Translations under genes and position numbers: made by a program
Origin: Aequorivita sp. H23M31
GTDB taxonomy: Bacteria > Bacteroidota > Bacteroidia > Flavobacteriales > Flavobacteriaceae
NCBI RefSeq assembly: GCF_004022485.1
Contig: NZ_CP034951.1
Location: 1,798,001 to 1,862,000, forward strand
Length of the DNA stretch: 64,000 bases
Reading direction: 5' to 3'
The notes under the pieces: generated by a model
Told to the model about the DNA's origin: nothing
Seen by the model: the letters and a program-made list of their open reading frames with translations, nothing else
Database searches by the model: none
Shown: one piece after another, positions 995-22,263 of the stretch
How positions within the stretch are numbered: position 1 is the stretch's first letter
Layout of the letters: each line of letters starts with the position of its first letter

Positions 995-2098
995 CTATCC
1001 CCTTACATCCATAGCATCCCTGAGCGCATTGCCAATTAGCATAAATGCGGTTACCAAACTCATAATAGCTAAACCAGGAATTAAAGCCAAATAGGGTTTT
1101 CCTAAAATTATATAGGCATAATGATCTTTTATAATCCCTCCCCAGCTGGGAATGGGAGGTTGTGCACCAATTCCTAAAAACGACAGACCACTTTCAATTA
1201 GAATAGCACTTGCAAAATTAGCCGCAGAAATAATTATAACGGGAGCCATACTGTTTGGCAGTATATGCCTCAGGATAATTCGATAATCTCTATAGCCAAG
1301 GGCACGGGCCGCAGTAACATATTGCATTTGCTTTACGCCCAGTACCTGTCCACGTACCACACGTGCAACTTCAACCCACATAGTTAGTCCAACAGCAATA
1401 AAAACCTGCCAAAACCCCTTGCCAAGAGCCAAGGTAATAGCGATTACCAACAGTAGCGTTGGGATAGACCAGGTAACATTTATTAGCCACATAATGGCCG
1501 CGTCAATCTTTCCTCCATAATATCCCGCAATAGCTCCGAGAGAAATTCCAATTACCAAAGAAATGAAAACGGCTACAAAACCGATGGCCAAAGAAATTCT
1601 TATACCTATCAACATACGGCTCAATAGATCTCGGCCATATTTATCGGTACCGAGCAAAAACCTTTTTTCGGCAATATACTTTGTGGAAATTTCTTTTGCC
1701 GATTTAGCCTCAGGGAAAAGTGAAAGTGGATATTCCTTTTGTAGTCCAGCGGTTCCATCCGGGGTGTATTCGGTAATCTCCACGCCCCTATCTCTTATTA
1801 TATATTTAGAAATGGGGATTTCGGTATCTACGTTTTTTCTGCCAAAGAAGAAAATGGAAAGGGAATTTTGGTTCTGCACCTTTGCAGGAATTGTAAGCAT
1901 CAAAACGTCAAAACCGGGATTTTTGGAATGTATGGAAAGATGCATTTGATTGGCATTTACCGAATTATCGGGAGCCAAAGCATATGCAAAAATGGCCAAA
2001 AGAACGCATACTATTAAAAACCCAAAACTAAAAACGCCCCAAAAGTTTTTTTTAAACTTTTGGAGCGCAATTCCAGTTAATGAAGTAGCGGTTTTCAC
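995..2098 (-). CDS. ABC transporter permease, OppC/DppC type
   Basis: Inner-membrane permease of 367 residues from the binding-protein-dependent transport family (BPD_transp_1), the second permease of peptide/nickel-type importers. The start is GTG. One N-terminal membrane helix (about 20-42) is followed by a soluble stretch to about residue 150, then about five helices. The EAA loop is clear (ARALGYRDYRIILRHILPN), and LLGTDKYGRDLLSRM before the transmembrane core is typical of OppC. The roughly 110-residue periplasmic insert is longer than in Escherichia coli OppC but is common in Bacteroidota. No partner permease, ATPase or binding protein is adjacent, so the substrate is unknown; the other subunits are probably encoded elsewhere. 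Confidence 0.85.
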   Translation of the reverse strand: MKTATSLTGIALQKFKKNFWGVFSFGFLIVCVLLAIFAYALAPDNSVNANQMHLSIHSKNPGFDVLMLTIPAKVQNQNSLSIFFFGRKNVDTEIPISKYIIRDRGVEITEYTPDGTAGLQKEYPLSLFPEAKSAKEISTKYIAEKRFLLGTDKYGRDLLSRMLIGIRISLAIGFVAVFISLVIGISLGAIAGYYGGKIDAAIMWLINVTWSIPTLLLVIAITLALGKGFWQVFIAVGLTMWVEVARVVRGQVLGVKQMQYVTAARALGYRDYRIILRHILPNSMAPVIIISAANFASAILIESGLSFLGIGAQPPIPSWGGIIKDHYAYIILGKPYLALIPGLAIMSLVTAFMLIGNALRDAMDVRG

Positions 2099-2242
2099 GT
2101 TCCAAATTTACTGAATTTTTTCGGTAGAACATGAAATTACCCTTCTCCCTATTTGATAGCTTAAAGTTTATTTCCCCAAAGCCCGGTATGAAAACGTCCT
2201 CTATTCTAAAGGTAAGGTCCCTATAGAATTAGAACTAATTGA

Positions 2243-4474: not shown

Positions 4475-4607
4475 ACTATTTTTTTATTCTTAAATTCTAG
4501 GAAACGCCTAAATTATACAAAAAACCGTGCCATAAAAATACAATGGTAATAATATTTTGTTAAACAAGATTTTGAAGCGAAGGTTTGACATTCCTAGGAT
4601 TACAAGA

Positions 4608-4638
4608 GTTCAGAACATAATTAATAAATGTATTTTTG
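4608..4638 (+). promoter_or_regulatory. Candidate promoter of surE
   Basis: TATTTTTG at 4631-4638 fits the TAnnTTTG -7 consensus of Bacteroidota and sits 26 bases before the ATG. A weak -33 candidate (GTTCAG at 4608-4613) lies 17 bases upstream, slightly closer than the usual 19. Assigned by position and consensus only. Confidence 0.4.
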
Positions 4639-4664
4639 TAGGTTAAAATAGTATTGAGAATTTG

Positions 4665-5438
4665 ATGATAAAACGCCCCCTTATTTTAGTTACAAATGAT
4701 GATGGCATCAACGCTCCTGGAATTAGAGCTCTGATAGAAGTAATGAACGAAATTGGCGATGTTTGTGTCGTTGCACCGGACTCTCCCCAGAGCGGAATGG
4801 GGCACGCCATTACTATAAACGATGCAGTTTATTGCAACCATATCAAGGTTGGTAGCGATAAGCTCCATCAGGAGTATAGTTGTAGCGGCACACCTGTAGA
4901 TTGCGTAAAACTGGCCGTAAATGAGGTTTTAAAACGAAAACCTGATCTTTGTGTTAGTGGAATAAATCACGGAAGCAATTCATCAATAAACGTCATTTAC
5001 AGTGGAACTATGAGTGCTGCGGTAGAAGCTGGCACCTTGGGAATTCCCGCTATCGGCTTTTCACTTTTGGACTTTTCACTAGAAGCAGATTTTAATGCCT
5101 CAAAGAAAATTGCGAAAATAATTGCCCTCGAGACCCTTAAAAACGGATTACCAAAGGGAGTGGTCCTCAATGTCAACATTCCAAAACTGAAAAGTTCTGA
5201 AATTAGAGGTATAAAGGTTTGTCGCCAGGCGAACGCACATTGGCAAGAAAAATTCGACAAGCGCACAAATCCTTTAGGGCGGGATTATTATTGGCTAACC
5301 GGAACCTTCGTAAATGAGGACAAAGGCAAGGATACAGATGAATGGGCCCTCGAACAAGGATATGTTTCCGTGGTTCCAGTACAGTTTGACCTTACCGCTC
5401 ATCATGCCATCAATGAACTTAATACTTGGGATTTGTAA
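4665..5438 (+). CDS. surE: 5'/3'-nucleotidase SurE
   Basis: Metal-dependent nucleoside monophosphate phosphatase of 257 residues, near the usual SurE size. The metal site is visible in VTNDDGINAPG at the N-terminus (paired Asp) and in NHGSNSSINVIYSGTMSAA near residue 100, the SurE signature. The ATG at 4665 is preferred to the TTG one codon earlier. The protein acts in the cytosol in nucleotide turnover and stress survival. A three-helix membrane protein follows, then coaD, on the same strand; the 222-base gap after surE, which contains a GGGAGAC repeat, makes a shared transcript uncertain. Confidence 0.95.
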   Translation: MIKRPLILVTNDDGINAPGIRALIEVMNEIGDVCVVAPDSPQSGMGHAITINDAVYCNHIKVGSDKLHQEYSCSGTPVDCVKLAVNEVLKRKPDLCVSGINHGSNSSINVIYSGTMSAAVEAGTLGIPAIGFSLLDFSLEADFNASKKIAKIIALETLKNGLPKGVVLNVNIPKLKSSEIRGIKVCRQANAHWQEKFDKRTNPLGRDYYWLTGTFVNEDKGKDTDEWALEQGYVSVVPVQFDLTAHHAINELNTWDL

Positions 5439-5660
5439 TTTAGATAAGACGGGAGATAGAGGACGGGAGACGGAGGCGGGAGACGGGAGACGGGAGACAA
5501 AATCAAAAAAGGGAAAAAAAAGAATTCCTGTCATCCCACGCTTTAGCGAAGATCTAAAAACCTGAAACTTTTAATTTTGAACAGTAAACTTTTTCTTTTG
5601 AATTTTTAACGAAAATGAAAGTAGCTGAAACTTGAAACCTGAAAATAACTATAAAACATT
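5439..5660. repeat. GGGAGAC short tandem repeat and AT-rich spacer
   Basis: Just after surE the sequence holds three contiguous copies of GGGAGAC at about 5478-5498, inside a longer purine-biased stretch of GACGGGAGA-like units (5445-5510). Apparent reading frames here are low-complexity artefacts. The second half (5570-5660) is AT-rich leader for the next gene. Confidence 0.6.
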
Positions 5661-5948
5661 ATGAAACCACATATCAAGGAAATTTTAATTGGGCTGGTAA
5701 TAGGACTGGTTGCGAACGTGGCGGGAATATACCTTTACATTTATTTTTTCTCTGAACATAGTTTAGAAACTACCTTACAGGCTGCCGTGGAAGAAGGTTT
5801 TTTAGGTAGTTTAATTGCCCTCGGTGCAATTCTCAACCTGTTGGCATTTTTCGTTTTCATAAAGAAAAAACAACTTTATAGAGCTCGCGGCGTATTATTG
5901 GCGACACTCATTGCAGCGTTGGCAATAGTTATTTCAAAATTCTTCTGA
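5661..5948 (+). CDS. Small three-helix membrane protein, hypothetical
   Basis: Protein of 95 residues with three predicted membrane helices (about 8-30, 48-68 and 77-94) joined by a short acidic loop and a basic loop (IKKKQLYRARG). No motif assigns a function. Its own ATG follows a plausible purine-rich leader. It lies between surE and coaD, 57 bases before coaD, and may be co-transcribed with coaD. From memory, flavobacterial genomes often carry a similar small membrane protein next to surE; this was not checked. Confidence 0.7.
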   Translation: MKPHIKEILIGLVIGLVANVAGIYLYIYFFSEHSLETTLQAAVEEGFLGSLIALGAILNLLAFFVFIKKKQLYRARGVLLATLIAALAIVISKFF

Positions 5949-6005
5949 CAAAAAACTGCATTCCCTTAGATGTTGTTATCTTAGTAAGCCAATAAAATCA
6001 TTAAA

Positions 6006-6458
6006 ATGAAACGAGCAGTATTTCCTGGAACCTTCGATCCGATTACCCTTGGTCATATAGACATTATTGAACGTGCCCTACCACTCTTTGATGAAATCGT
6101 GATAGCCATTGGAGTCAATGCTGATAAAAAAACAATGTTTCCGTTAGATGAAAGAATTAAATTTATTACAGAAGCCTTTAAAGAAGAGACCAAGATCAGC
6201 GTTAAAAGCTACTCAGGCCTTACAGCACATTTTTGTATTTCGGAACAAGCAGAATATATTGTCCGGGGTTTGCGTAATACTACCGATCTAAACTTTGAAC
6301 AGCCGATTGCCCAAACTAATTTTAAGATGGCTAAAATAGACAGTCTGTTCTTAATCTGCTCTCCTGAAGTTTCCAACATCTCCTCCACCATCGTCAGGGA
6401 TATAATGCGAAATGACGGGGACTATTCTAATCTCGTTCCTACTTCAGTAAAAAAATAA
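6006..6458 (+). CDS. coaD: Phosphopantetheine adenylyltransferase
   Basis: Transfers AMP from ATP to 4'-phosphopantetheine, the penultimate step of coenzyme A synthesis, in the cytosol. The 150 residues match the normal family length. The nucleotidyltransferase signature GTFDPITLGHIDII at the N-terminus contains the (T/H)xGH catalytic motif, and SNISSTIVRDIM near residue 125 is the ISSTxVR motif of CoaD. It is convergent with rpsT; a hairpin at 6505-6534 separates them and may end both transcripts. Confidence 0.95.
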   Translation: MKRAVFPGTFDPITLGHIDIIERALPLFDEIVIAIGVNADKKTMFPLDERIKFITEAFKEETKISVKSYSGLTAHFCISEQAEYIVRGLRNTTDLNFEQPIAQTNFKMAKIDSLFLICSPEVSNISSTIVRDIMRNDGDYSNLVPTSVKK

Positions 6459-6504
6459 GCAATTAACTCCAAAGTGGTTCGGATCTTCCTAAAAGCCCTA
6501 AAAT

Positions 6505-6534
6505 GAAAAAACCTTCCAGTTTCCTGAAAGGTTT
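6505..6534 (-). terminator. Rho-independent terminator of rpsT, possibly bidirectional
   Basis: An 11-base stem (AAACCTTCCAG paired with CTGAAAGGTTT, one mismatch) with a TTTC loop. On the minus strand it is followed by a T-run, as expected for the end of rpsT. On the plus strand it lies 46 bases after the coaD stop and could also end that transcript. Confidence 0.75.
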
Positions 6535-6557
6535 ATATTTCTATACATTTAAAAATC

Positions 6558-6809
6558 TTATAGAGCAGCTACGTGCTTGGCCATATTCGATTTCAAGTTT
6601 GAAGCCTTGTTATCGTGAATAATGTTTTTCTTGGCCAATTTGTCAATCATAGAAACCACAGTTGGGAACATAGTCTCAGCTTCCTTCTTATCTGTAAGCT
6701 CTTGGAATTTCTTCATGGCGTTACGAGCCGTTTTATGCTGATAACGATTTCTCAAGCGTTTAGTTTCGTTGCTTCTAATTCTCTTTAATGCTGACTTGTG
6801 GTTTGCCAT
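6558..6809 (-). CDS. rpsT: 30S ribosomal protein S20
   Basis: Small basic protein of 83 residues that binds 16S rRNA in the small subunit. It starts [19 protein letters not shown], the S20 N-terminal signature, and stays rich in Lys and Arg throughout with predicted long helices. The length is normal. It lies 28 bases downstream of tRNA-Glu on the same strand, so the tRNA promoter at 6931-6961 probably drives both genes; the hairpin at 6505-6534 follows the stop. Confidence 0.96.
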
Positions 6810-6837
6810 TGTGTACTTGTTAAATTCTAAACTTCTG

Positions 6838-6909
6838 TAGTCCGTAGGGGAATCGAACCCCTGTTACCAGGATGAAAACCTGGCGTCCTAACCCCTAGAC
6901 GAACGGACC
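6838..6909 (-). tRNA. tRNA-Glu (UUC anticodon)
   Basis: A complete cloverleaf reads on the minus strand: acceptor GGTCCGT pairing with ACGGACT (first pair G-U), the D-arm GTCTAGGGGTTAGGAC, an anticodon arm CCAGG-TTTTCAT-CCTGG containing TTC, and a T-arm AGGGG-TTCGATT-CCCCT. CCA is not encoded. It sits between proS and rpsT. Exact ends were placed by eye. Confidence 0.93.
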
Positions 6910-6930
6910 ATTAATTTTCAAATGCGGATG

Positions 6931-6961
6931 CAAAAATACAACTATTTTTCATTCACGCAAA
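6931..6961 (-). promoter_or_regulatory. Bacteroidota-type promoter of tRNA-Glu and rpsT
   Basis: On the minus strand TTTG (6958-6961), exactly 19 bases of spacer and TATTTTTG (6931-6938) match the TTTG-N19-TAnnTTTG consensus of Bacteroidota vegetative promoters. Transcription would start a few bases before the mature tRNA 5' end at 6909. Confidence 0.75.
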
Positions 6962-6988
6962 TCTAAAATGAAATTTTATTGTTTTTAT

Positions 6989-8464
6989 TTAATACGCCTT
7001 TGCAAAAAGCACTTTCCTTGCTCCTGCTTTCCCAGTCACCATACAGTTTCCGCTCTCATCTTGAGCATCTAAAGGAATACATCGTATGGTCGCTTTGGTC
7101 TCATTTTTAATCTTTTCTTCTGTTTCAGGAGTACCGTCCCAATATGCGGAAATAAATCCGCCTTTGGATTCCAGCACTTCCTTAAACTCATCATAGGAAG
7201 AAACTTCTGTTGTATGTTCTATTCTATAAGTCAATGCTTTCTCAAAAAGATTGTTTTGTATTTCCGCCATTAAAGAAATTACTTTATCTACCACATCATG
7301 CTTAGCCACAAATTCCTTCGTAAGTGTATCTCTTCTTGCCAACTCCACAGTTCCCTTTTCTATGTCCTTAGGACCAATTGCAATTCGAACGGGAACACCT
7401 TTTAATTCATATTCATTGAATTTCCAACCTGGCTTCTGAGTGTCGCGATTGTCAAATTTAACTCTAAGTCCCTTTGAACGCAATTGCTTCATTAAGTCAT
7501 TAGCTACCTCGCTCACCGCTTTCAACTCTTCCTCACTTCTGTAAATAGGCACAATAACCACCTGATCAGGCGCCAGATTTGGTGGAAGAACCAGGCCATT
7601 ATCATCGCTATGGGTCATTATTAAAGCTCCCACTAGTCGAGTGGAAACACCCCAAGAAGTTGCCCAAACATAATCTAGAGCTCCATCTTTGGCAGCAAAC
7701 TTAACATCAAAAGCCTTGGCAAAATTTTGTCCCAGAAAGTGGGATGTTCCTGCCTGTAAAGCTTTACCATCTTGCATAAGCGCCTCGATACAATAAGTTT
7801 CAAGTGCCCCAGCAAATCGTTCACTTTCTGTTTTGGTACCTTTCACAACTGGAATCGCCATAAAGTTTTCCGCAAAGTCGGAATAAACATTCATCATTTG
7901 TTCTGCCTCCGCAATAGCTTCTTCTTTAGTGGCGTGGGCAGTATGTCCCTCCTGCCATAAGAATTCCGCTGTTCGCAAAAACAGACGGGTACGCATTTCC
8001 CAGCGGACCACATTGGCCCATTGGTTTATTAACAACGGTAAATCTCTATAAGATTGAATCCATTTGCGGTAAGTATCCCAAATAATTGTTTCAGAAGTTG
8101 GCCTAACAATTAATTCCTCCTCCAATTTTGCTTCCGGATCTACGATAATTCCACTTCCGTCCTCTGCATTCTTTAGTCTATAATGTGTAACTACGGCACA
8201 TTCTTTTGCAAATCCATCAACATGGCTGGCTTCTTTACTGAAATAGGATTTGGGGATAAATAATGGAAAATAGGCATTCTGATGTCCTGTTTCTTTGAAC
8301 ATCCTATCCAACTCGGCCTGCATCCTCTCCCAAATAGCATAGCCATAGGGCTTGATTACCATACAGCCCCTTACGCCCGAATTTTCAGCTAAATCGGCTC
8401 TGATTACCAACTCATTATACCATTTAGAATAATCTTCTTCTCGTGTAGTTAGTTTCTTCGCCAT
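6989..8464 (-). CDS. proS: Prolyl-tRNA synthetase, archaeal/eukaryotic-like short type
   Basis: Class II synthetase of 491 residues that charges tRNA-Pro in the cytosol. The length and the absence of the roughly 180-residue editing insert place it in the short type common in Bacteroidota. Motif 2 region [15 protein letters not shown] (near 165-180), [15 protein letters not shown] (motif 1/2 area) and [17 protein letters not shown] (near 240) are typical of this form. The anticodon-binding domain follows, with [15 protein letters not shown], and the C-terminal zinc-like domain ends in [12 protein letters not shown], the usual ProS terminus. It lies 79 bases upstream of tRNA-Glu, which has its own promoter. 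Confidence 0.96.
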
Positions 8465-8567
8465 AGTATGGGATTTGGCACAAAAGTTGCAACCTTGTTA
8501 AAGCATTAGTTATTGTTCGCAAAACTACTTATTTTTATGAATTCAAACAATTATTAAAACTACAGAT

Positions 8568-9641
8568 ATGTTCACCCAGAAAATTACCATAAAGTCGTTC
8601 ACCCTTCCCTTGCTGATTGGGACTTTAGCTATTTTGATGGTTTCGTGCGGAACACAAAATAAAGCTTATAATCAGAATGATGGTATTTATGCTTCCGGGG
8701 AAAGATCTTCCCAGGAAAAAAATACTTCTAACGATAATCAGTACGAAAAAGCTAATTATTACAAGCAATATTTCCAAATGAAAAAGAATGACTACGGAGA
8801 AATTGCCGAAAATGATGAAGATATAATTTTTACGGATATCGATGCCTATACCACTTCCGAAAGAATTGATGACGAAGGAAATATCATAATTGAAGAAAGC
8901 TATGAAGATCCCTATGGTCCCTGGGGGAATAACTCAGAGGATGTTACTGTCAACATTTACAATAATTATGCCTCATATGGCTATGGATACGGTTTCTACA
9001 ACCGACCTTATGGATGGTATAATAGTTATTGGGGATATCCCTACTATAATTACTACGGACCTTATTGGGGTATGAGCTTTACTTGGGGCTGGGGTTACCC
9101 ATACTATGGATACGGTTATCCGTATTATGGTTATCCTTATGGATACGGATATCCTTATGGATACAGCTATGGTTATGGTTATGGTTATCCTTATTATGGT
9201 AATGCCTCCTATAATCGAGGAAGAAGAAATACCGACTATAGTAGGACAGAAGCAAGAGGGCGTTCAAATAACGCTACAACAAGAAATTCGTATAGCCGAT
9301 CTGAAACTACACGTAGAATAAATAGAAATAATGTGAATGTTCGCTCAAACGATTCACGTGTGCGATCAAATAATACGAATGTTAGGTCCAATTCAAATAG
9401 TACCATTAGAAATAACAGTTCCAACAACACGCGAAACATTCGCAGCAACTCCAACAGTAATATTCGAAGCGCACCTTCAAATAATACCCGTAACAACAGT
9501 TCTATCCAGAGTGGTAGCAATAGGAGTTCAACGCCAAGGACCTATTCAGCTCCACCAAGAAGTTCAAGCGGAAGTAGCATTCAAAGCTCGAGTGGAAGTG
9601 GGAGAAGTAGTGGTAGAAGCGGAAGCCGCGGAAGAGGTTAA
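8568..9641 (+). CDS. Tyr/Gly-rich, Arg/Asn/Ser-rich lipoprotein, function unknown
   Basis: Lipoprotein of 357 residues with lipobox LMVSC (Cys27). Three compositional blocks follow: an acidic soluble part (about 30-135), a Tyr/Gly/Pro block (about 140-215) made of repeats such as YGYPYYGYPYG, and a basic Ser/Asn/Arg block to the C-terminus (NNTRNIRSNSNSNIRS and similar) ending in SGRSGSRGRG. No enzymatic motif is present. Such proteins are often annotated in flavobacteria by spurious similarity to vitellogenin. The composition suggests an unstructured, sticky surface or periplasmic protein; that is inference. A hairpin at 9673-9716 follows the stop. Confidence 0.75.
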   Translation: MFTQKITIKSFTLPLLIGTLAILMVSCGTQNKAYNQNDGIYASGERSSQEKNTSNDNQYEKANYYKQYFQMKKNDYGEIAENDEDIIFTDIDAYTTSERIDDEGNIIIEESYEDPYGPWGNNSEDVTVNIYNNYASYGYGYGFYNRPYGWYNSYWGYPYYNYYGPYWGMSFTWGWGYPYYGYGYPYYGYPYGYGYPYGYSYGYGYGYPYYGNASYNRGRRNTDYSRTEARGRSNNATTRNSYSRSETTRRINRNNVNVRSNDSRVRSNNTNVRSNSNSTIRNNSSNNTRNIRSNSNSNIRSAPSNNTRNNSSIQSGSNRSSTPRTYSAPPRSSSGSSIQSSSGSGRSSGRSGSRGRG

Positions 9642-9672
9642 TAAAAACACAATTCGAAAAGCAAATAATAAA

Positions 9673-9720
9673 TATGCCATCTCATATTTGGAAAATCCAA
9701 AAAGTGGGATGGCATAAATT
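9673..9720 (+). terminator. Hairpin after the Tyr/Gly-rich lipoprotein gene
   Basis: TATGCCATC (9673-9681) pairs with GATGGCATA (9708-9716), and an inner TTTGGA/TCCAAA stem extends the structure. The following bases are AAATTTT, so the T-tract is weak. It lies 31 bases after the stop codon. Confidence 0.5.
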
Positions 9721-9747
9721 TTAAATGATTAATACTACAATCTACGG

Positions 9748-11268
9748 ATGAAAACAATACATCTTATATTCTTTTTAATACTTTCAACAGCAGGTATACA
9801 CGCTCAACAAATAACTGACGGATTAAGATACAGTCTTGATCAAAATATTGGAACTGCGAGGTTCACGGCTCTTAGTGGAGCAATGGGGGCATTGGGCGGT
9901 GATTTTTCGGCTATGCGCGAAAATCCGGCAGGAAGTGCTGTTTTTATGAAATCCAATATTACTCTTACAACCTCATTATTGGATATAAAAAATACTTCTT
10001 CCTATTACAATCAATTGGAGAAAACATTTTCCGACGATATAATTATTAATCAGATGGGTGGAGTTTTTGTTTTTGACAATTTTGAAGAAGATTCCAGTTT
10101 AAAAAAATTCACAGTCGGCTTTAATTACGATATGGTTCGCGGACTTGATGATGAAATATATATTGCGGGAAGAGGTCGAAACTCACTAGGAAATTTCTTT
10201 TTGGAACAGGCCCAAGGAATCCCCTTAAATCTTTTGCAATTGCAGGCGGGTGAATCCATTGCAGATTTATACAGCTATCTTGGAAGCGAAATGGGATCAA
10301 CAGCCCAAAATGCATTTTTGGGATATCAAGCTTATTTATTCGACCCCCTCGATCCTGATAATCCTTTAAATTCCTCTTATGTGTCGAATGTAAGTGGAAA
10401 TAGCTTTAATCAAGAATACTTGTATAGATCTCGGGGATATAACAGTAAATTTACAATTAATCTGGCTACTCAGATTACTAATGACTTTTATTTTGGAGTT
10501 AACCTTAATACGCATGCAATTGATTTTAGCCGGAACACCTACTTTGTAGAAACCAACAACAATCCAGGATCAATTATTACAGGAATAGGATTTGAGAACA
10601 ACTTATCAGTTACGGGAACTGGAATATCCGCACAATTTGGAGCGATTGCAAAAGTCGCTTATAATTTCCGTTTCGGATTAAATTGGGATACCCCTACTTG
10701 GTTTAGGGTTTCAGAAATTACTTCGCAATATCTAGAAAGCCAAAGATTGGTAGATCAGCGAAATGTCACTGCTATTGTCGATCCCCGCGTCATCAATATA
10801 TATGCTGATTACGATTTAAAGACTCCTGGAAAACTCGGAGTGAGTACAGCTTACATTTTCGGTCAAAAAGGACTACTCAGTTTTGATTACTCTTATAAAG
10901 ATTATTCAAACATTGAGTTCCAACCTAAAAATAATTCCTATTTCAGAGATTTGAACTACAGCATAAAAAACACTTTAAAAGGAGTTTCCACCTTTAAAGC
11001 GGGGGCAGAATATCGAATAAATCAATTGAGTCTTCGTGGTGGTTTCCACTATGAGGAAAGTCCTTATAGAGATGATAAAACATTGGGAGATTTAACCGGC
11101 TTTTCCCTCGGTACAGGTTATAGTTTCGGAAATTGGAACCTGGACCTAGCCTATTCTAGATCTGAACAGGATAGAGAACTACAAATGTATTCTCAAGGAT
11201 TTACGGATAAGGCCAATATAAATTCAGTGTACAGTAATTTTATTCTTTCCCTCGCATTTGATTTTTAA
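9748..11268 (+). CDS. OmpP1/FadL-family outer-membrane transport protein
   Basis: Protein of 506 residues with signal peptide cleaved after IHAQ. The N-terminal stretch GTARFTALSGAMGALGGDFSAMRENPAG is the typical start of the OmpP1/FadL/TodX family, whose barrels take up hydrophobic compounds such as fatty acids. The rest consists of beta strands with aromatic girdles, ending in NFILSLAFDF with the terminal Phe favoured by outer-membrane assembly. The substrate is not known. It is on the same strand as the preceding lipoprotein but separated by a hairpin. A non-coding stretch of 473 bases follows. Confidence 0.88.
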   Translation: MKTIHLIFFLILSTAGIHAQQITDGLRYSLDQNIGTARFTALSGAMGALGGDFSAMRENPAGSAVFMKSNITLTTSLLDIKNTSSYYNQLEKTFSDDIIINQMGGVFVFDNFEEDSSLKKFTVGFNYDMVRGLDDEIYIAGRGRNSLGNFFLEQAQGIPLNLLQLQAGESIADLYSYLGSEMGSTAQNAFLGYQAYLFDPLDPDNPLNSSYVSNVSGNSFNQEYLYRSRGYNSKFTINLATQITNDFYFGVNLNTHAIDFSRNTYFVETNNNPGSIITGIGFENNLSVTGTGISAQFGAIAKVAYNFRFGLNWDTPTWFRVSEITSQYLESQRLVDQRNVTAIVDPRVINIYADYDLKTPGKLGVSTAYIFGQKGLLSFDYSYKDYSNIEFQPKNNSYFRDLNYSIKNTLKGVSTFKAGAEYRINQLSLRGGFHYEESPYRDDKTLGDLTGFSLGTGYSFGNWNLDLAYSRSEQDRELQMYSQGFTDKANINSVYSNFILSLAFDF

Positions 11269-11741
11269 AGATGATTTAAATCTTTCTTAAACCTCGATTT
11301 TTCTTAAATTATTTGGTAGACAGTATTCATAAAGGATTTAAGGACAATAAACTATAGTCAAAATTATAGGACAATTGAAGCTACCTATCCAATGCTTTTA
11401 ATTTTAACCCAAAAGTATCTTCATTTCAACTTATGGAAGGTCACCCTAATAAGAATCAATTTCTAAAAAATTAGAGTCAAGCTATATAGTTTGTATAACT
11501 AAAAATATAAGCCAGAAAAGAGGAGTTTTCTTAAGAACCATCTGTAAGATTCTAATAGAAATTTTGCAGAGCTGGGAATTAAAGACAGTAGTTATTATTA
11601 CCGAAGAGAAGTCTTTAGACCGTTTGAATACGGATTAGGAAATACCTTCACGAACCAAACGATTACTAATCCATATATACCAAAAAGCCCCGCACGATGC
11701 AGGGCTTTTTTGTTCTGTTTGGTTCTGCGTTGGTGTTCCAC
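11269..11741. other. Intergenic region, no gene seen; terminator near its right end
   Basis: AT-rich spacer between two convergent genes. No supported reading frame on either strand. A stretch around 11570-11690 on the plus strand reads as ELGIKDSSYYYRREVF without a start codon and might be a decayed coding remnant, but this is weak. Confidence 0.4.
11683..11710 (-). terminator. Rho-independent terminator of the giant surface-protein gene
   Basis: AAAAAGCCC (11683-11691) pairs with GGGCTTTTT (11702-11710) around a short inner GCA/TGC stem. Read on the minus strand the hairpin ends in five T residues 32 bases after the stop codon at 11742. The A-run on the other side would let it work in both directions. 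Confidence 0.8.
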
Positions 11742-14700
11742 CTAGCGCTTCAGTGCAAAGTGCCCCTTGAACTGGTAGGGGGTGCCGTCCAGCACGTACT
11801 CCACGCGGAACCAGTAGTCGCTCGATGGCAGCGGGTTCCCGTTGTAGGTACCGTCCCATCCGGGGCCCAATGGGCTCACCTGCTTGAGCAGCTTCCCGTA
11901 GCGGTCGAAGATGTAGATCTTCGCGCTCGGGTCCGCCTGGGCCATCCCGATGATGTTCCAGGTGTCGTGGTAGCCGTCCCCGTTGGGCGTAAAGTACGGC
12001 ATGTAGTCCAGTACCCCGATGGTGATGGTCACAAGCCCGCAGCCGTTCTTGTCCCGTATGGTTATCGTGTGCGGGCCCGCCGCCACGTTCTCGAAGATGG
12101 TCCCGTCCTGGAAGGGGCCGTCGTCAAGCTGGTACTCGTAGATGCCCAGCCCCGTGGCCCAGACCTCGATGCTGTGGCTGTCCGCGAAGGGCAGGGTGGT
12201 CACCGATGCGCCGTAGGTGAACGGCGGGGAGGAGAGCACCACCTCCGTGCTCGCCGAGGCATCGCAGCCCGTGGCAAGGGCGGTGACGATCACCGTATAG
12301 GTGCCGTCCACCACCGCTACGGTGGAGGGGCCGTCCTCCCCGGGCAGCAGCACCCCGTCCAGCATCCACTCAAAGGAGTAGAGCTCCGGGTCCAGTCCGG
12401 TATCGATCACCAGCGCGGGGCCGATCGGGTTGCCGTTGGCGTCCACGCACAGCGTGTACTGCTCCTCCAGTACGATCAGCGGCAGCTCATGCACCTTGAG
12501 GATGACCTCGACGATGGCATGGCACTGCGGCTCGTAGAGGTTCTCCTCGTTGGTGACGCGGGCATAGACCACCTGCGGGTTGATGGTGTTCACGAACGGG
12601 AACACGATCGGGTCGGTCCCGGCCTCGGCCTCCTCAAGGGTCTCGTAATAGGCCAGTGAGTACACCAGCGGGTCCTGGCCCCCCAGTATCCCGTTGCGCA
12701 GGTCCACCACCTTCTGGATGCTGAAGTCCTCAAGGTCGAACTCCGCGAACCCGTCGCTCGGCGGAAGGTTGTCGCATATGGCGAACGGCTCCGCCGGCTC
12801 CGTGGCCTCCGCGCCCTCCTGTACGATCAGCTCGAAGTGCTGGAGCCCGCCGATATAGCAGCCGGTAACGCGGTCACGGATGCCCGTATAGATGGTCTGA
12901 GGGTTCTCCGTATTGCCCATAAGGTCACGGTTCCAGTGCTGTCCCGGGTTGAGTATGCGGTTGGTACCGGTCTCCGCGAACACGGGGTCCAGGTAGAAGG
13001 TTACCTCAAAGTCGAGCTGCGACTGGCCGGGCCCCAGGATCTCGTCTATCTTGGTGGTAAGGTCGAACAGGGCCAGGTCCGTGCCGGACAGGCACTGCAT
13101 GTAGTTGGACACCGGTGCGCTGGCGTCCGGCAGCGGGTACACGATCAGCTCCAGCTCAACGATCTCGAAGCAGCCGGTCGCGGCATTGGTCGCCCGTACG
13201 TAGATGGTCTGCGGGCTGGAGGTGTTGGCATAGCTGGTCGGGTCGGGCACCGCGGTGGCGGGATCGCCCCCAACGGCATCGCCGTAGCTCTCGAAGTAGC
13301 CAAGCTCCCAGGTCTCGCCATGCAGGATGGCCGCCGCCCTGAGGGTCAGGTCGAAGAGCTCCACCCCGTCGTCGGGGCCGGGGCCCACCACGATGTTCTC
13401 GTCGCAGAGCACCAGGGGCTCGGGCGTGGCGGGCTGCGGGTTGGGCAGCACGCGCAGCAGCAGGTGGGTGTAGGAGACGCAGCCGCTGTTGCCGTCCTCT
13501 ACCCGTACGTAAACGCGCTGCGGGTTCTCGGTGTTCTCAAAGGCATGGTCCGGGTCGATGCGGTCCACGTTGGCCAGGGCGTCAGCCTCCGTAAGGAAGT
13601 AGCCCACCCCGAGCCCGGGGGCACCGCCGGTTATCTCGGCGTTCTTGACGGTAAGGTCGAAGACCGCGCGCATATCGTTGGGCTCGCCCAGGTCGTCGCA
13701 GATCTCCAGCGGCCCGGGCTCGTTGATGGGGATACCGTCCGAGACCACAAGGGCAAAGTGGCCCGTGGCAAAGCACAGGTCGCCCTCGGTGTAGGCCAGG
13801 CGCACGTAGATCTCCTGGGGGTTCGAGGTATTGGTATAGGCCCCCGGGTTCACGATCGGGTCGTCGCCGGTATCGGCACCGCCCTGGGTGGTATGGTAGG
13901 TAAGGCGCAGCACCGTGCGGTCCTGGCCACCGTATATCAGGTCCTCCTGTACGGTAAGGTCGAACACCGCAGTACCGTCACCGTCGGGGTCGCACGCCAC
14001 AAGGTCGGGAAGGTCCACCGGGACCACCGGGCTCGGGGACACGATAAGCTCCAGGGGCACGATGCTGTAGCAGCCCGAGGTATTGGGCGCAAGGGCGAAG
14101 GTGGCCCGCGCATAGATCGTCTGGGAGAAGGCCACGATGTTCTGGAACGGGGAGGCAAGCGGCAGGGTGCCGTTCTGGGCATCCAAAAGGGTCTCGTGGT
14201 AGGTCACCACAACCGCGGGGTTGCCGTTGGATATCTGGGCGTCCCTCAGGGCAAGGTCGAACCGGGCAAAGCCGTCGTTGTCGTCATCGCACTTTACCAG
14301 CGGGTCGGGCTCGCCCGCCCGCGGTACGGGGAGCACCACAAGGGTCAGCGTGGTGGTGGCCGAGCAGCCGGCGGCACTGGAAACGGTCACCTGCAGGGTG
14401 TAGGGGCTGATCCCCTGGCCCGCACCGTCGACCGGGTTGGCATAGGCCGATGGGTCCGCGATGGGATTATCGTTCTGCTGGTCCGCTATGCTCTCGTAGT
14501 ACCGCACGGTAAGGGCGGCGTTTCCGCCGGTGATGGTGTTGTTGTTGGCGGTCAGGTCGAATATCGAGATCCCATCGGTATCGCTGCCGCTCTCCAGGTC
14601 GTCGCAGAGGACCATGTCCGCGGGAGGGGTGATCGCGGGGAAGCCGCCCACCACCAGCCCAAAGCTGCTGATGCGGAAACAGCCGGTCACGTCGTTCTCA

Positions 14701-17700
14701 AGGCGCACCCAGATGGTCTGTCCGGAGCTGGTGAACGAGGTCGGATCGGTGATGGCATTGGTGGGCACCAGGGCATCGTCCAGGGCCGTGTGATAGGTAA
14801 GGATGAAGTCCGGGGACTGGGTGCCGTATATGAACGGCGCGTTGTCGGTAAGGTCGAACTCCGCACTGGTGCCCCCGTCAAGGTCGCAGGCAAGCAGGTC
14901 GCCGAAGCCCTCGGTGGGCGCATCGGGCACGGGGCTTACCCACAGCTCCAGCTCACGGATGACGTGGCACCCCGTGGCGGTCTTTTCAACCCGTGCCCAG
15001 ACGGTATCGAAAAAGGGCGTGTCGTTGGTGTACGGGCCGGTGATCTGGGTAAGGGGATCTCCGAGCTCGGCCAGGATCCGTGTGGTATAGTACTGGATGG
15101 CCAGTCCCGGCTCGGCGTTGGCGATCTCATCATCCTTTAGGGTCAGGTCGAACTCGGCAAAGCCGTCGTTGTCGTCATCGCACACCACAAGCGGGGTGGG
15201 CGTGATCGCCCTGGGTACGGGAAGTACCACCAGGGTCAGGGTCGTTTTGGACGCGCATCCATCGGTATTGAAGACGCTCACCTGCAGGGTGTGCGGGGTG
15301 ATCCCATCCCCGTTCGCGTCCACAGGATTGCTATAGGTGGTGGGGTTGGGGACCGGGATGTCGTTCTGTTGGTCGGCCACGGTCTCGTAGTAGCGAACGG
15401 TCAGCGACAGGTTGCCGCCGGTGATGGTACTGTTGTTGCTGTTCAGGTTGAAGACCGATACCCCGTCGGTATCGCTGCCGCTGGCAAGGTCGTCGCAGAG
15501 CTCCATGTCCGCGGGCGGCAACAGGGCTGGCAGGCCGGAGACTACCAGCTCAAAGCTGCTGATACGGAAGCAGCCCGTACCGTTGTCCTCCAGGCGTACC
15601 CAGATGGTCTGGCCGGTGCTGGTGTAGGCAGTGGGGGAACCGATGGCATTGGTGGGCACCATGGCATCGTCCAGGCTGGTGTAAAAGGAAATGAGGAAAT
15701 CCGGTGACTGGTCCCCGTACACGAACTCCGTGTTCTCGGTGAGGTCAAATTCGGCACCGCTGCCATCCTCCGCGTCACAGGCGAACAGGTTCCCGAAGCC
15801 CGGGGCCGGGGCGCCCGGAACGGGGTTTACGATCAGCTGTAGCGGCACCACGGCATAGCAGCCCGTGGTGGTGCGCTCCACGCGCGCCCAGACGGTATCG
15901 AAAAAGGGGTTGTCATTGGTGTAGGGGCTAAATATTTGATCCAGCAGCGAGCCGATCTCGGCCAGTGCCCGTGTGGTATAGTAGCGGATGGTCACATCCT
16001 GCTCCCCGTTGGTGATCTCGATATCCTTCTCGGTCAGGTCGAACTCGGCAAAGCCGTTGTTGTCGCCATCGCACACCTCCAGTGGGGTGGGCACGGCGGG
16101 TACCGGAAGGGGGTTCACCACCAGGGTAAGGGTGATGGTGGCGGAACAGCCGAAATTGTTGGTCACCCGCGCCACGATGGTCATCGGGTTGAGCGGGGCG
16201 GGCGGGATCTCCCGGTTCTGGTAGGCACGCGGGTTCGGGATCGGGTTGTCCATCGCCTCGTCGGCGTAGGTCTCGAACCAGGTCACCGAGAGGGAAAGGT
16301 CCCCCCCGGTGATCTCCCGGTTGCGCGTGGTCAGGTCGAAGGTGCTGATCTGGTCGCTGTCGCTGCCGCTGGCAAGGTCGTCGCAGAGCTCGTACGGCAG
16401 TGGCTGGATGGGCACCGGCAACGGGTCCACGAAGAGCTCCAGCGGCACGATGTCGTAGCAGCCCTCACCCCCGTTGTGCGGAGAGGTGTTCAGGGCGTTG
16501 CCCACCGCAAGCACGTAAACGGTCTGGTGGAACGGAACCGTGTTCTGGTAGGCCGCCGGGGTGCCGATGGCGCCCGAGAAATCGGGGGCGGTAAGGGCAA
16601 GATCGCCAGCAGCTACAGCGTCCGCCTCGGTCTCGTAGTAGTAAAGGTCGTACTGCGCAGGGTCCATTCCCCCCAGCATCTCAGGCTCTTTTACGGTAAG
16701 GTCGAAGATCTGAAGGCCGTCCGTGTCGTCGTCGCAAAGACGCAATGGGGTCGGGACAGTCAAAGTGGGACTGTTGCGGACATATAAATAAAGTCTTATT
16801 ATAGCGTTACAGCCACTCAAACCTTCAATGCGTGCAAAAACAACATCAACAAACGGGTCATCGTTAATGTACGGGTCGATAAGTTCGTTTAGGTTATTTT
16901 GGGCATCAAGCTCTGTGGGATGGTAGGTTACAACCAATGTGGCATCGCCCATTGTAATATCATCATCCGCATCGTGTAGGTTAAAAGGAGCATAACCGTC
17001 ATTATCAGTATCACAAACAATTAGAGGAGCAGGATTGGGATTCGCATTGGGAGGAAACTCCATTATAATTTCAAAATCAGTAACCGCATAACAGTCCGGA
17101 TTAATACGATTTTCAACTCTTGCATATAATGTGATGGGAGTAGATGTGACAATATAAGGTTGGGGAAGTGGATTATTTCCGGTATCGGCATCCCCTGGAT
17201 TATCATGATAGGTAAGGTTAAGAAGATTTGGATTCTGCCCGTTTAAAATGGCAGATGAAAAAATAGCCTGCAGGTTAATAGGCTCCTCACCGTTATTATC
17301 TTGGTCGCATATATAATAAGGACTAGGTGGCGCAGTGGCAAGGGCTGTAACCAAGGAAATCTCAAATGAATCTATAACATAACAGGTACCATTGTCATTT
17401 TCAACCCGGACCCAGATAGTTTCAATACTTCCAACAATTGGATAAGCATTCGCTGGTATTATCGGGTTCACATCGTTATTGGCATCCTGTTGAGAATGGT
17501 GGTAAGTAATAACAAAGTTAGGATCTTGACCTCCTAATACGACAGCATCATTTTCCGTAAGGTCAAAAAGTCCCGTGGAACTACCATCATCACAAATACC
17601 TAAATCTTCAGGAGGACTAGCAATGAACGGCTGTGGATCTATTATAATTTCAAAATCTACAACCGCGTAACAATCCGTATCAAGACGATTTTCAACTCTT

Positions 17701-19472
17701 GCATAAATGATCATCGGAGAAGTGGTAACCACATAAGGATTGGGTAAGGCGTTTGTCCCATTATCCGCATCTCCAGGATTATCATGGAAAGTCAGTGCTA
17801 CATCGGCCAAACTTTGTCCGTCCAAAATGGCAGCAGAGAAAAGCGCTTGTAGATCCAAAGTTTCTTCTCCATCACTGCCCTCATCACATAGACGATAAGG
17901 ACTTGGCGGCGGGGTTGCAAATGCCGTCACCAATGAAATTTCGAAAGAATCTATAGCATAACAGGTACCATTTGCATTCTCGATCCGTACCCAAATGATT
18001 TCGCTGTTTCCAACAATAGGGTAAGCATTTGCGGGAATGATTGGACTTGCATCATTCTCGGCATCCGGTTGGGTATGGTGATAGGTAATGACAAAGTTGG
18101 GATCTTGAGTTCCCAGAACTACTGCATCATTTTGCGTTAGGTCAAAAAGCCCTGATGAACTACCATCATCGCAAATACCGAGATCTTCTGCCGGGCTTGC
18201 AATCTCTGGCTGCGGGTTAAAGAGAATGATAACGCTATCCGTTACGTCGCAAAGGGGGCTAGAAACTGTCACCGAGTATTCACCCGAATTTGGAGCAGTT
18301 ACAGTATAGGTATCACCGGTAGCTCCAGGTATTACAACCCCATCTAAAAACCATTCATATGCCAATCCGGTTTCTCCTCCTGTATCTGCAAACAATACTA
18401 TATCGTCTTCGCTACAGGTTTCAACGTCATCACCCAAATCAACCTCTAAATCGGAGTCTAGGAATACTGTAACCGTATCTTCGTCAGTTATCATTACCCC
18501 ACTACAGTTCGTATATTCTGCTTGAGCTGTAAAAGTTGTCGTTTCGGTAACACAAACATCCAAAGTTGTACCGCTTCCAACTTGGATTCCATTGGCATAC
18601 CATTTAATTTCAACATTAGGATCTCCATTGGGAGTAAAACGCCAGGCTTCATCATGAGCCGACCAGCTGCCAGTGTTTCTTCCTGGTGGGGTGTATCCTA
18701 CTGTTGCGTCGGCATTTTGAATACCAATAACGCCATTACCATTCTGCCAACTATTACAAGGGGTCCTATCTTTTACATAAACCTCAATAACATTGGTAGT
18801 TTCATAAAGGATCATTTGATAAGTCTGTTCCCCTACACCCATATTACATTGAAATTGACCCAATTTATAAATGTTAAAGACCAACATCCTACAGGGATAA
18901 CTTCCCACAAGTTCGTAGTTAATAGACCATCCGGGGAAAGAATATCCAGCTCCCGGGCGAGTGTCTTGCAATACTCCAAAAATTCCAAGTACGGACCGTG
19001 AGTCTGAGCTTATTCCTGTATACGTTCCGTTGTTACCAGGGACGGGGCCGTTTAATGGATATCCTGCAGAAGTCCCCGGAGTATATCGGCCATTTGGAAC
19101 CTCTCCTACAATACTAAAAGATAGGGCACCATTGGAACTAATTATGGCCCTTTCATAAGGCTCACCAAAAAAACAAAACTCAAAACCTAAATCTATTCGC
19201 TGGGACCATTCATCATCCACGGCAATACTAGTAGAGCCTGTCCCTCCAGTAAAGGGAAAGGGAGGGGCAAAAGGTATAGCCGAAACCTCATAGCTCGTGG
19301 TTTCACCGGTATGTAGATATTCAGCAGTGAGTGTAGTACAAGGATCTGAACAAGTTACTTCTACATCTTCACCGGCATCCACATTGGGACAACCAGATAC
19401 CTGAGAATAAAGGGGAAATGATAAAAGTAATACTAGAAACCCTAGATATTTTTTGGGGCAGAAGTTTGTCAT
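11742..19472 (-). CDS. Giant T9SS type B (CHU_C) repeat surface protein
   Basis: Exported protein of 2576 residues. The signal peptide (LGFLVLLLSFPLYSQ) is followed by a module of about 320 residues, then Ig-like segments with conserved Cys, then about 19 tandem repeats of 90-115 residues with the signature CDDDNDGFAEFDLT and later (I/V)WVR(V/L)E plus GC. The C-terminus (FTPNGDGYHDTWNI, IYIFDRYGKLLKQ, GWDGTYNG, YWFRVEY) is the gliding-motility-associated CHU_C domain used for export by the type IX system, so the protein should be anchored on or released from the cell surface. Repeats 8-10 and 11-13 form a duplicated triplet, and repeats 1-2 and 3-4 a duplicated pair. Base composition changes abruptly at about 16,770: repeats 6-19 and the C-terminus are about 65% GC, the N-terminal part about 35-40%. 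A role in adhesion or gliding is inference. Confidence 0.93.
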   Translation of the reverse strand: MTNFCPKKYLGFLVLLLSFPLYSQVSGCPNVDAGEDVEVTCSDPCTTLTAEYLHTGETTSYEVSAIPFAPPFPFTGGTGSTSIAVDDEWSQRIDLGFEFCFFGEPYERAIISSNGALSFSIVGEVPNGRYTPGTSAGYPLNGPVPGNNGTYTGISSDSRSVLGIFGVLQDTRPGAGYSFPGWSINYELVGSYPCRMLVFNIYKLGQFQCNMGVGEQTYQMILYETTNVIEVYVKDRTPCNSWQNGNGVIGIQNADATVGYTPPGRNTGSWSAHDEAWRFTPNGDPNVEIKWYANGIQVGSGTTLDVCVTETTTFTAQAEYTNCSGVMITDEDTVTVFLDSDLEVDLGDDVETCSEDDIVLFADTGGETGLAYEWFLDGVVIPGATGDTYTVTAPNSGEYSVTVSSPLCDVTDSVIILFNPQPEIASPAEDLGICDDGSSSGLFDLTQNDAVVLGTQDPNFVITYHHTQPDAENDASPIIPANAYPIVGNSEIIWVRIENANGTCYAIDSFEISLVTAFATPPPSPYRLCDEGSDGEETLDLQALFSAAILDGQSLADVALTFHDNPGDADNGTNALPNPYVVTTSPMIIYARVENRLDTDCYAVVDFEIIIDPQPFIASPPEDLGICDDGSSTGLFDLTENDAVVLGGQDPNFVITYHHSQQDANNDVNPIIPANAYPIVGSIETIWVRVENDNGTCYVIDSFEISLVTALATAPPSPYYICDQDNNGEEPINLQAIFSSAILNGQNPNLLNLTYHDNPGDADTGNNPLPQPYIVTSTPITLYARVENRINPDCYAVTDFEIIMEFPPNANPNPAPLIVCDTDNDGYAPFNLHDADDDITMGDATLVVTYHPTELDAQNNLNELIDPYINDDPFVDVVFARIEGLSGCNAIIRLYLYVRNSPTLTVPTPLRLCDDDTDGLQIFDLTVKEPEMLGGMDPAQYDLYYYETEADAVAAGDLALTAPDFSGAIGTPAAYQNTVPFHQTVYVLAVGNALNTSPHNGGEGCYDIVPLELFVDPLPVPIQPLPYELCDDLASGSDSDQISTFDLTTRNREITGGDLSLSVTWFETYADEAMDNPIPNPRAYQNREIPPAPLNPMTIVARVTNNFGCSATITLTLVVNPLPVPAVPTPLEVCDGDNNGFAEFDLTEKDIEITNGEQDVTIRYYTTRALAEIGSLLDQIFSPYTNDNPFFDTVWARVERTTTGCYAVVPLQLIVNPVPGAPAPGFGNLFACDAEDGSGAEFDLTENTEFVYGDQSPDFLISFYTSLDDAMVPTNAIGSPTAYTSTGQTIWVRLEDNGTGCFRISSFELVVSGLPALLPPADMELCDDLASGSDTDGVSVFNLNSNNSTITGGNLSLTVRYYETVADQQNDIPVPNPTTYSNPVDANGDGITPHTLQVSVFNTDGCASKTTLTLVVLPVPRAITPTPLVVCDDDNDGFAEFDLTLKDDEIANAEPGLAIQYYTTRILAELGDPLTQITGPYTNDTPFFDTVWARVEKTATGCHVIRELELWVSPVPDAPTEGFGDLLACDLDGGTSAEFDLTDNAPFIYGTQSPDFILTYHTALDDALVPTNAITDPTSFTSSGQTIWVRLENDVTGCFRISSFGLVVGGFPAITPPADMVLCDDLESGSDTDGISIFDLTANNNTITGGNAALTVRYYESIADQQNDNPIADPSAYANPVDGAGQGISPYTLQVTVSSAAGCSATTTLTLVVLPVPRAGEPDPLVKCDDDNDGFARFDLALRDAQISNGNPAVVVTYHETLLDAQNGTLPLASPFQNIVAFSQTIYARATFALAPNTSGCYSIVPLELIVSPSPVVPVDLPDLVACDPDGDGTAVFDLTVQEDLIYGGQDRTVLRLTYHTTQGGADTGDDPIVNPGAYTNTSNPQEIYVRLAYTEGDLCFATGHFALVVSDGIPINEPGPLEICDDLGEPNDMRAVFDLTVKNAEITGGAPGLGVGYFLTEADALANVDRIDPDHAFENTENPQRVYVRVEDGNSGCVSYTHLLLRVLPNPQPATPEPLVLCDENIVVGPGPDDGVELFDLTLRAAAILHGETWELGYFESYGDAVGGDPATAVPDPTSYANTSSPQTIYVRATNAATGCFEIVELELIVYPLPDASAPVSNYMQCLSGTDLALFDLTTKIDEILGPGQSQLDFEVTFYLDPVFAETGTNRILNPGQHWNRDLMGNTENPQTIYTGIRDRVTGCYIGGLQHFELIVQEGAEATEPAEPFAICDNLPPSDGFAEFDLEDFSIQKVVDLRNGILGGQDPLVYSLAYYETLEEAEAGTDPIVFPFVNTINPQVVYARVTNEENLYEPQCHAIVEVILKVHELPLIVLEEQYTLCVDANGNPIGPALVIDTGLDPELYSFEWMLDGVLLPGEDGPSTVAVVDGTYTVIVTALATGCDASASTEVVLSSPPFTYGASVTTLPFADSHSIEVWATGLGIYEYQLDDGPFQDGTIFENVAAGPHTITIRDKNGCGLVTITIGVLDYMPYFTPNGDGYHDTWNIIGMAQADPSAKIYIFDRYGKLLKQVSPLGPGWDGTYNGNPLPSSDYWFRVEYVLDGTPYQFKGHFALKR

Positions 19473-20796: not shown

Positions 20797-22263
20797 ATGA
20801 ACAACCTTCACATTTATAACTCGCTTACTAAAACCAAAGAAAAATTCGTCCCTATACACGAAGGCGCTGTGGGAATGTATGTATGCGGCCCTACGGTTTA
20901 CAGTAATGTTCATTTAGGAAATTGCAGAACCTTTCTTTCGTTCGATCTTGTATTTAGATATTTAAAGCATCTGGGATATAAAGTGCGCTATGTTAGAAAT
21001 ATTACCGATGCGGGACATCTGGAGAATGATGGGGAAAGTGGGGAGGATCCTATTCTGAAAAAAGCGCGGATTGAGCAATTGGAGCCTATGGAGGTTGTTC
21101 AGAAATATACTGTCGATTTCCACACGGTTTTATCAAAATTCAATGCGCTACCGCCGAGTATTGAGCCAACCGCGACGGGCCATATTATCGAACAGATTGA
21201 GATAATAGAAAAAATAATTGCCGAAGGATTTGCCTACGAAAATAATGGTTCAGTTTATTTTGATGTTCTCAAGTTCAACGAATCTCACCAATATGGAAAA
21301 CTGAGCGGTCGGAACATTGAGGATATGATCGCGAATACCCGTGAATTATCTGCTCAAACCGACAAAAAGAATCTGCAGGATTTTGCTCTTTGGAAAAAAG
21401 CGGAACCTCAGCATATAATGAGATGGCCTTCACCTTGGAGTGTCGGATTTCCAGGATGGCATTTGGAATGTACGGCCATGAGCACAAAATATCTGGGCGA
21501 CAATTTTGACATTCACGGAGGCGGAATGGATCTAAAATTCCCACACCATGAATGTGAGATTGCCCAAGCGGAGGCATGTAATGATATTTCGCCGGTCAAT
21601 TATTGGATGCATGCCAATATGCTTACATTAAACGGAAGAAAGATGTCCAAATCTACCGGCAACTTTATTCTTCCCAATGAAATGTTTACCGGAGAAAATG
21701 ATATTCTAAAGAAGCCCTTTTCCCCTACAGTGACTAAGTTCTTTATGTATCAGGCACACTATCGGAGCATTTTGGATTTCAGCAGCGAAGCTTTGGAAGC
21801 TTCCGAAAAAGGATTCAACAGATTAATGGATGCCTACCGAATGTTGAACGGTTTGGAAACTTCAGAAAAATCTAGTCTTGATATAGAAAGTTGGAAAAAA
21901 GCGTGTTATGATGCGATGGATGACGATTTTAATAGTCCAATCCTTATCGCTCATCTTTTTGAAGGGGTTAAGTTCATTAACGCTCTTAAGGAGGGAAAGG
22001 AAACTATTACCAAGGAAGATCTGGAAAACCTGAAAACCACGATGCACAACTTTTTATTTGAGGTAATGGGATTACAGGATCTTTCTTCAGAAAATTCTGG
22101 TGATAGCGAAAAACTTTCAGCTGCGGTTGAGCTTCTTATTGAACTACGAAACCAGGCACGTGCAAACAAGGATTTTGCAACCAGCGATAGAATACGGGAC
22201 CGACTTTCGGATAAGGGAATTCAATTGAAGGATGGGAAAGAGGGAACTACTTTCAAGTTATGA
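20797..22263 (+). CDS. cysS: Cysteinyl-tRNA synthetase
   Basis: Class I synthetase of 488 residues that charges tRNA-Cys. The zinc-binding and HIGH-like region [16 protein letters not shown] is at residues 29-44; WHLECTAMS and HHECEIAQ carry further zinc ligands near 230-260; the KMSKS motif appears as [11 protein letters not shown] near 285. The C-terminal helical domain follows, with [20 protein letters not shown], typical of CysS. Length is normal. The upstream 50 bases hold TCATCCGTCATC repeats; a block of five degenerate tandem repeats begins right after the stop. Confidence 0.97.

Follow-up and report, generated by a model that had tools for sequence, protein, structure and literature searches.

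The stretch analysed here (hereafter the window) comprises 64,000 nucleotides of Aequorivita sp. H23M31 (contig NZ_CP034951.1, positions 1,798,001 to 1,862,000) and carries, at 11742..19472 on the minus strand, an open frame for a giant type IX secretion system (T9SS) type B surface protein of 2576 amino acids, inside which the base composition changes abruptly. The GC-rich 3' part of this gene is held almost without change in common with a second giant gene situated ~190 kb away in the same genome, and we consider it probable that biased gene conversion between the paralogous tracts causes the GC step. The protein is SprB-like and is known here from its sequence; a role in secretion and gliding is predicted at most.

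A GC step at the edge of a tract shared by two genes

The reading frame (11742-19472, minus strand) is uninterrupted across the step through all of its 2576 codons. Base counts give 3220 G or C of 5041 (64%) over 11742-16782 versus 1143 of 2690 (42%) over 16783-19472, and the window outside the gene stands at ~38% GC (4381/11680 over 1-11680 and 16793/44528 over 19473-64000). A preliminary description of this DNA had placed an abrupt jump within the frame at about 16,770. This is borne out by a two-state maximum-likelihood changepoint fit, in which the GC content of third codon positions (GC3) passes from 0.32 to 0.86 at gene bp 2739 (window ~16733) with a likelihood ratio of 786; the figures quoted at the time, 40/60 GC at 13441-13500 and 21/60 at 17341-17400, are obtained exactly upon recounting. 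The GC-rich block also extends beyond the stop codon to ~11681, with 31/61 GC over 11681-11741 versus 59/181 over 11500-11680.

The window genome (G000) is a single contig of 3.68 Mb, and the matching part of the second gene lies at C1:2005894-2011839. The tract common to both copies (11681..16782, minus strand) is 99.4% identical; its 5102 bp contain 31 differences, of which 22 fall at third positions. Near-identity runs from 16782 down to 11681 and thereby takes in the non-coding end of the tract (11681..11741, minus strand), which reaches 61 bp beyond the stop codon. Before 16782 there is an edge zone (16783..17074, minus strand), where three 100-bp windows show 66-86% identity to the second copy and GC that is mostly not raised (0.39-0.51); the next windows are 99-100% identical and GC rises. 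Further upstream of the edge zone the identity is 43-67%, and the head of the gene (17075..19472, minus strand), which is AT-rich and comprises a signal region recognised by eye, an N-terminal module and the first repeats, has no DNA-level sharing with the second copy. The GC step is positioned at the start of near-identity to the second copy. Because the edges of identity and of GC coincide, the GC block, including its 61 non-coding bases, is the block held in common with the paralogue.

Near-identical copies and GC3 across genomes

The effect was examined in this gene family and in the PorP/SprF gene discussed below, over 123 distinct genes from 52 genomes. The 102 genes that were classified (47 genomes) comprise 37 near, 50 far, eight of middle identity, four near without enough head and three taken as collapsed; 21 genes were excluded as cut by a stretch or contig end or shorter than 800 codons. 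A near-identical copy means a mean identity of at least 93.5% over 1 kb, and tracts were defined by chaining all aligned pieces. Outside the genus, the regions were hand-chosen and are not a random draw (110 of 249 genomes matched, and 34 of those were taken). Stalk sequence is common across genomes solely for the pairs G016/G009 and G014/G023.

In 19/19 genomes with near-identical copies the shared part has the higher GC3, by a mean of +0.22 (range +0.04 to +0.52), as against a mean shift of +0.006 (range -0.03 to +0.08) in 27 genomes lacking a near copy (Mann-Whitney P 1e-8). These 19 consist of four Aequorivita genomes, 12 distinct genus codes and three metagenome-assembled genomes (CALSSW, NORP82 and M30B29). 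A changepoint likelihood ratio of at least 25 is reached in 32/37 near genes versus 0/50 far genes, and changepoints lie a median of 158 bp from the tract start (n = 32), versus 1383 bp under random placement. Both kinds of gene are present in four genomes, in which the near and far shifts are +0.24 and -0.01 (G074), +0.19 and +0.02 (G172), +0.17 and +0.01 (G166), and +0.04 and -0.01 (G246); all four differ in the expected direction, G246 only weakly. The eight middle-identity genes (81-91%) have shifts of -0.05 to +0.14. A near-identical pair in FRAM221, with no usable head comparison in the main test, has GC3 0.23 outside and 0.29 inside. Expressed as a log odds ratio for GC3 inside versus outside, the apparent strength of the effect is 2.6 in the window genome and ~3 in two drafts. 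We also note very high GC3 in the stalks L129 and L130 (0.88) and blocks with GC3 ~0.95 that are assumed to be L120 (Luteirhabdus pelagi, a 3717-bp contig), all in draft assemblies with second copies not shown.

Conserved loci and concerted evolution in Aequorivita

The genes of the genus occupy loci that are recognisable by flanking similarity. Locus A, marked by folE (GTP cyclohydrolase I, PF01227; 19517..20302, plus strand) and by cysS (20797..22263, plus strand; named from reading its protein, and present in 28/28 genomes of the genus), is where the gene sits in the window genome and in G002, G014, G015 and G023. Eight genomes have locus B (G001, G012, G014, G015, G016, G020, G022 and G023), and in 8/8 of those compared a PorP/SprF gene lies close by on the downstream side. 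Locus C is identified by both flanks in the window genome and G016 and by the downstream flank in G009. The loci are older than the identity they share, A and B being kept across several Aequorivita species and C across three.

Near-identity and the step go together at these loci as well. In G015 the copies share 6986 bp at 99.6% identity, and GC3 goes from 0.26-0.28 outside this part to 0.66 within it; the identity starts at bp 1623 and 1848, exactly at the GC3 changepoints (1623 and 1848). The copies of G016 are 100% identical over 5420 bp, with GC3 0.29-0.30 outside and 0.82 inside. No strong step is present in G001, G012, G020 and G022, where the C-terminal part finds a single match at E 1e-60, with likelihood ratios of 2-15, nor in G014 and G023; the locus-B genes of these six genomes are flat. 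Copy number alone was considered as the cause and is disfavoured, since G014 and G023 have two copies, aligning at only ~65%, yet GC3 ~0.2.

All 26 heads compared match other species best, with identities reaching 97% across most of their length, and the tracts are 100% identical (last 900 amino acids) within G000, G015 and G016. By this sequence comparison, the 3' part of the genes is under concerted evolution, paralogues within a genome being more alike than orthologues of different species in the converted part only. Some heads have seemingly moved between loci: the locus-B head of G022 matches those that G014 and G023 have at locus A with 71-72% identity, and in G016 the heads resemble types belonging to other loci.

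Proposed mechanism

The gene is one of a set encoding T9SS type B surface proteins that have a stalk and sorting domain in common but differ in their N-terminal heads. Homologous gene conversion would copy the stalk, together with some flanking DNA, between paralogous loci and so keep it nearly identical within a genome, with the heads remaining distinct, the pattern of concerted evolution seen by comparison. If repair during conversion favours G/C over A/T, a bias that we infer, the rise in GC would be confined to the converting tract and stop where homology ends, and an abrupt step would result. Stalks present singly or in diverged copies are at background composition, an association seen across the genomes. 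GC-biased gene conversion among the repeats of the gene had been offered as one explanation in the preliminary description; conversion is supported in kind, and the partner is the distant second gene copy, not the neighbouring repeats.

One reading frame here holds both a converting and a non-converting part, the arrangement is repeated in at least 13 genera, and single-copy species supply controls at the same locus. If the explanation is upheld, it would be wrong to take such composition steps for horizontal transfer, and the genes would make the bias and its repair enzymes directly testable.

Several observations weigh against biased conversion. Three near genomes, G246 (+0.04), G117 (+0.07) and CALSSW (+0.08), lie within the control range (maximum +0.084). 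Changepoints are distant from the tract start in G002 (-3033 bp, where a contig end truncates the partner), in G206 L323 (-1374), in G127 (~765 bp) and in G167 (549 bp). GC-rich tracts occur in G163, SAT2595, G122 and G205-C7 with no second copy shown, and these are assumed to be collapsed draft repeats; the contig ends tested in G011 (one contig) and G025 (two) have no overlap with the tract contig. The 31 differences between the tracts of the window genome include 12 and 11 differences between A or T (W) and G or C (S), an even split. In the six genomes that have three or four copies, 30 of the isolated singletons are S>W and 29 are W>S; such singletons can be either new mutations or remnants of replaced alleles. 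At four-fold sites, loss of A only is seen in four genomes (G127, G150, G247 and CALSSW) and of T only in five (G117, G220, G166, G167 and NORP82), and the composition of G246 barely shifts. In a study of M. tuberculosis paralogues, GC content was not associated with conversion frequency (PMC13061034).

Direction and strand pattern of the shift

Four-fold sites were compared in 22 genomes; A and T both fall in 12 of them, including the strongest, the loss is one-sided in nine and neither base falls in one. Far genes have no mean base shift (n = 50, mean changes <0.01, standard deviations 0.03-0.05). Two-fold purine sites move to G in G127, G150 and G247 with no such move at pyrimidine sites, and G117 has almost no change at C/T sites. 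A simple GC bias does not predict one-sided loss, because by reasoning a repair that favours only G/C should act alike on both strands; therefore a strand-aware bias or recombination-linked mutation may act in those genera. Both the direction of conversion and the W>S transmission bias are putative. A tentative and rather doubtful extension is that the bias of ectopic conversion is strong, lineage-specific and sometimes strand-specific. Depending on the genus, it would deplete the coding strand of A or of T, or of both where the shift is strongest, much as if correction were limited to the invading strand, such that the tract would gain a codon dialect of its own.

Two observations on the extreme tracts may be added. 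A is scarce at coding-strand synonymous sites in L304, L305, L306, L307, L117 and L135 (G247, G127 and G150), with four-fold A at 0.08-0.10 and T nearly constant. In the G117 tracts (L315 and L316), four-fold T goes from 0.44 to 0.14 and A from 0.46 to 0.68, GC3 rising only from 0.13 to 0.20.

The alternative that fares best is recombination-linked mutation, in which repeated break repair would yield mutations with a spectrum of its own, sometimes strand-specific, that ordinary conversion then spreads. The strand-asymmetric shifts in 9/22 genomes speak for it, as do the singletons, which lack an AT bias. We regard it as unlikely on the whole, since the strongest cases are near-symmetric changes from W to S and the singleton data are ambiguous between new mutations and old alleles.

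The shift follows DNA

The tract of G016 runs 1018 bp beyond the stop codon and covers a PorP/SprF gene. The GC3 of the tract PorP/SprF gene is 0.68 in G016 and 0.61 in G009, and six other orthologues have GC3 0.24-0.45. The orthologue in G020, with 92.5% identity at the protein level, has GC3 0.34; this is the cleanest case of altered codon usage with the protein kept, which the preliminary description had stated for the giant gene. Four-fold A and T in the tract gene of G016 are both below those of four of its orthologues. The composition shift follows DNA, not protein, and the GC rise is independent of codon optimisation and gene function.

Selection on the codon usage or the mRNA of the stalk is accordingly improbable as the cause. 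In its favour, only certain synonymous classes are shifted in G117, G127, G150 and G247, and ribosomal-protein genes carry more C than the heads at two-fold pyrimidine sites, partly in the same sense as the strong tracts, a likeness that is partial. The codon comparison with ribosomal genes that the preliminary description proposed nevertheless fails to account for the shift: ribosomal genes use mainly A/T-ending four-fold codons in 13/13 genomes, and the cosine between tract shift and ribosomal shift is -0.56 to 0.47. Single-copy stalks are unshifted, and the shift takes in the PorP/SprF gene and the 61 non-coding bases, both of which argue against such selection.

Origin of the tract

The abrupt step inside one reading frame could also suggest a chimera, whose 3' part would have come by horizontal transfer from a GC-rich donor and then been duplicated. 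The preliminary description named a donor from a GC-rich relative, for which the phylogeny gives no support: the tract groups with Aequorivita orthologues, and first with a sister species at GC3 0.40. That species, G008, is the closest relative in the tree, and its tract has GC3 ~0.3-0.56 in 300-bp blocks versus 0.19-0.30 in most of its head. In the tree of the last 499 residues, low-GC3 single copies are nested among high-GC3 ones; G022 (GC3 0.36) groups with G009 and G016 (0.77-0.80), G001, G012 and G020 (0.31-0.34) group with G003, G005 and G011 (0.72-0.86), and G008 (0.40) groups with the window genome (0.90). A single donor event cannot account for this tree because the low-GC single copies are scattered among the high-GC ones, and low-GC species are likewise scattered in a species tree from three marker proteins. 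With a GC3 threshold of 0.45, 6/6 independent pairs differing in the near-identical copy differ the same way in GC (sign test 0.031); with 0.38, five pairs agree and one pair has no difference (sign test 0.0625). The near-copy labels of several drafts in these pairs (among them G011, G025 and o122) are assumed or taken from contig ends, and G026 was excluded.

AT-rich and GC-rich stalks moreover occupy the same syntenic locus in different species, and 19 genomes repeat the step at the border of identity. There was no phage match and a single plasmid match, covering 17% of the query, which counts against a donor. Of 2617 protein relatives, the 120 listed carry T9SS type B names or none, and the first of them is from Aequorivita, at 64%. 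A chimera is thus most improbable.

In drafts the tract is frequently a short contig alone, and contig ends overlap the tract contig in G002, G003, G005, G008, G009, G017, G024 (20 bp only) and G027. Draft assemblies do collapse these tracts, yet an assembly artefact or contamination is the least credible of the explanations, misassembly being unlikely because the window genome is one contig and the same kind of step is seen in other single-contig genomes (G015, G016, G247, G127, G167, G206, G089, G117, G220 and G172).

Relation to known systems

GC-biased gene conversion in bacteria was proposed by Lassalle et al. 2015 (PMC4450053) from gene GC versus evidence of intragenic recombination. The present case is alike in that GC is up where recombination is frequent, independent of codon optimisation; it differs in that paralogues within a genome are the recombining partners and that the contrast takes the form of a step within individual genes. 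The word 'paralog' is absent from the main text of that article. A GC link to break repair in prokaryotes was described by Weissman et al. (PMC6867656), and the same source indicates that the shaping of bacterial base composition by biased gene conversion is still debated. A similar picture is offered by the palindromes of primate X chromosomes (PMC8981503), the arms of which are kept >99% identical by gene conversion and are GC-richer than single-copy flanks. In contrast to that meiotic eukaryotic system, the tracts here are bacterial coding sequence, GC3 reaches 0.86 in the shown pairs, and certain genera have a form that is strand-asymmetric. Open-licence literature yielded no report of a composition step at the edges of bacterial paralogue tracts, and absence from print is not claimed; nor did it hold anything on point for ectopic conversion in bacteria, concerted evolution of Bacteroidetes adhesins, conversion in Flavobacteria, multicopy rRNA operons or Aequorivita with the sorting domain.

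SprB and other type B proteins depend on a PorP/SprF-like partner to be secreted and anchored (PMC9143113). The present proteins resemble SprB in being giant and repetitive, with a type B sorting domain, and in the PorP/SprF gene downstream at locus B in 8/8 genomes. Unlike SprB, the window copy and the second copy have no adjacent PorP/SprF gene, the three such genes of this genome being elsewhere. By analogy, the shared stalk is likely kept because the sorting domain must fit a common PorP/SprF-like partner, and surface proteins that differ in their heads could then be served by one partner through the stalk and sorting domain they have in common.

Other features of the gene and the window

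The type B sorting domain of the giant protein comprises residues 2489-2576 (11745..12008, minus strand) and is identified by TIGR04131 at 117.8 bits (cut-off 35), in line with the CHU_C family PF13585. The stalk has a higher-order repetition at 14170-16092, in which segments return every 891 bp, the length of three ~297-bp units. The window was also scanned for a 15-base pattern, with no hit.

Long open frames lie antisense to the GC-rich tract on the plus strand, at 11697-12659 (320 amino acids), 12837-15140 (767 amino acids) and 15936-16787 (283 amino acids), and in G016 such a frame opposite the tract reaches up to 1522 amino acids. Antisense frames of at least 700 amino acids opposite the gene are listed solely where the tract is GC-rich. 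They are most likely a by-product of the few A/T at third positions. Elsewhere in the window, a frame of 357 amino acids at 8568-9641 (plus strand), lipoprotein-like by eye, has a very high content of Tyr, Gly, Ser and Asn.

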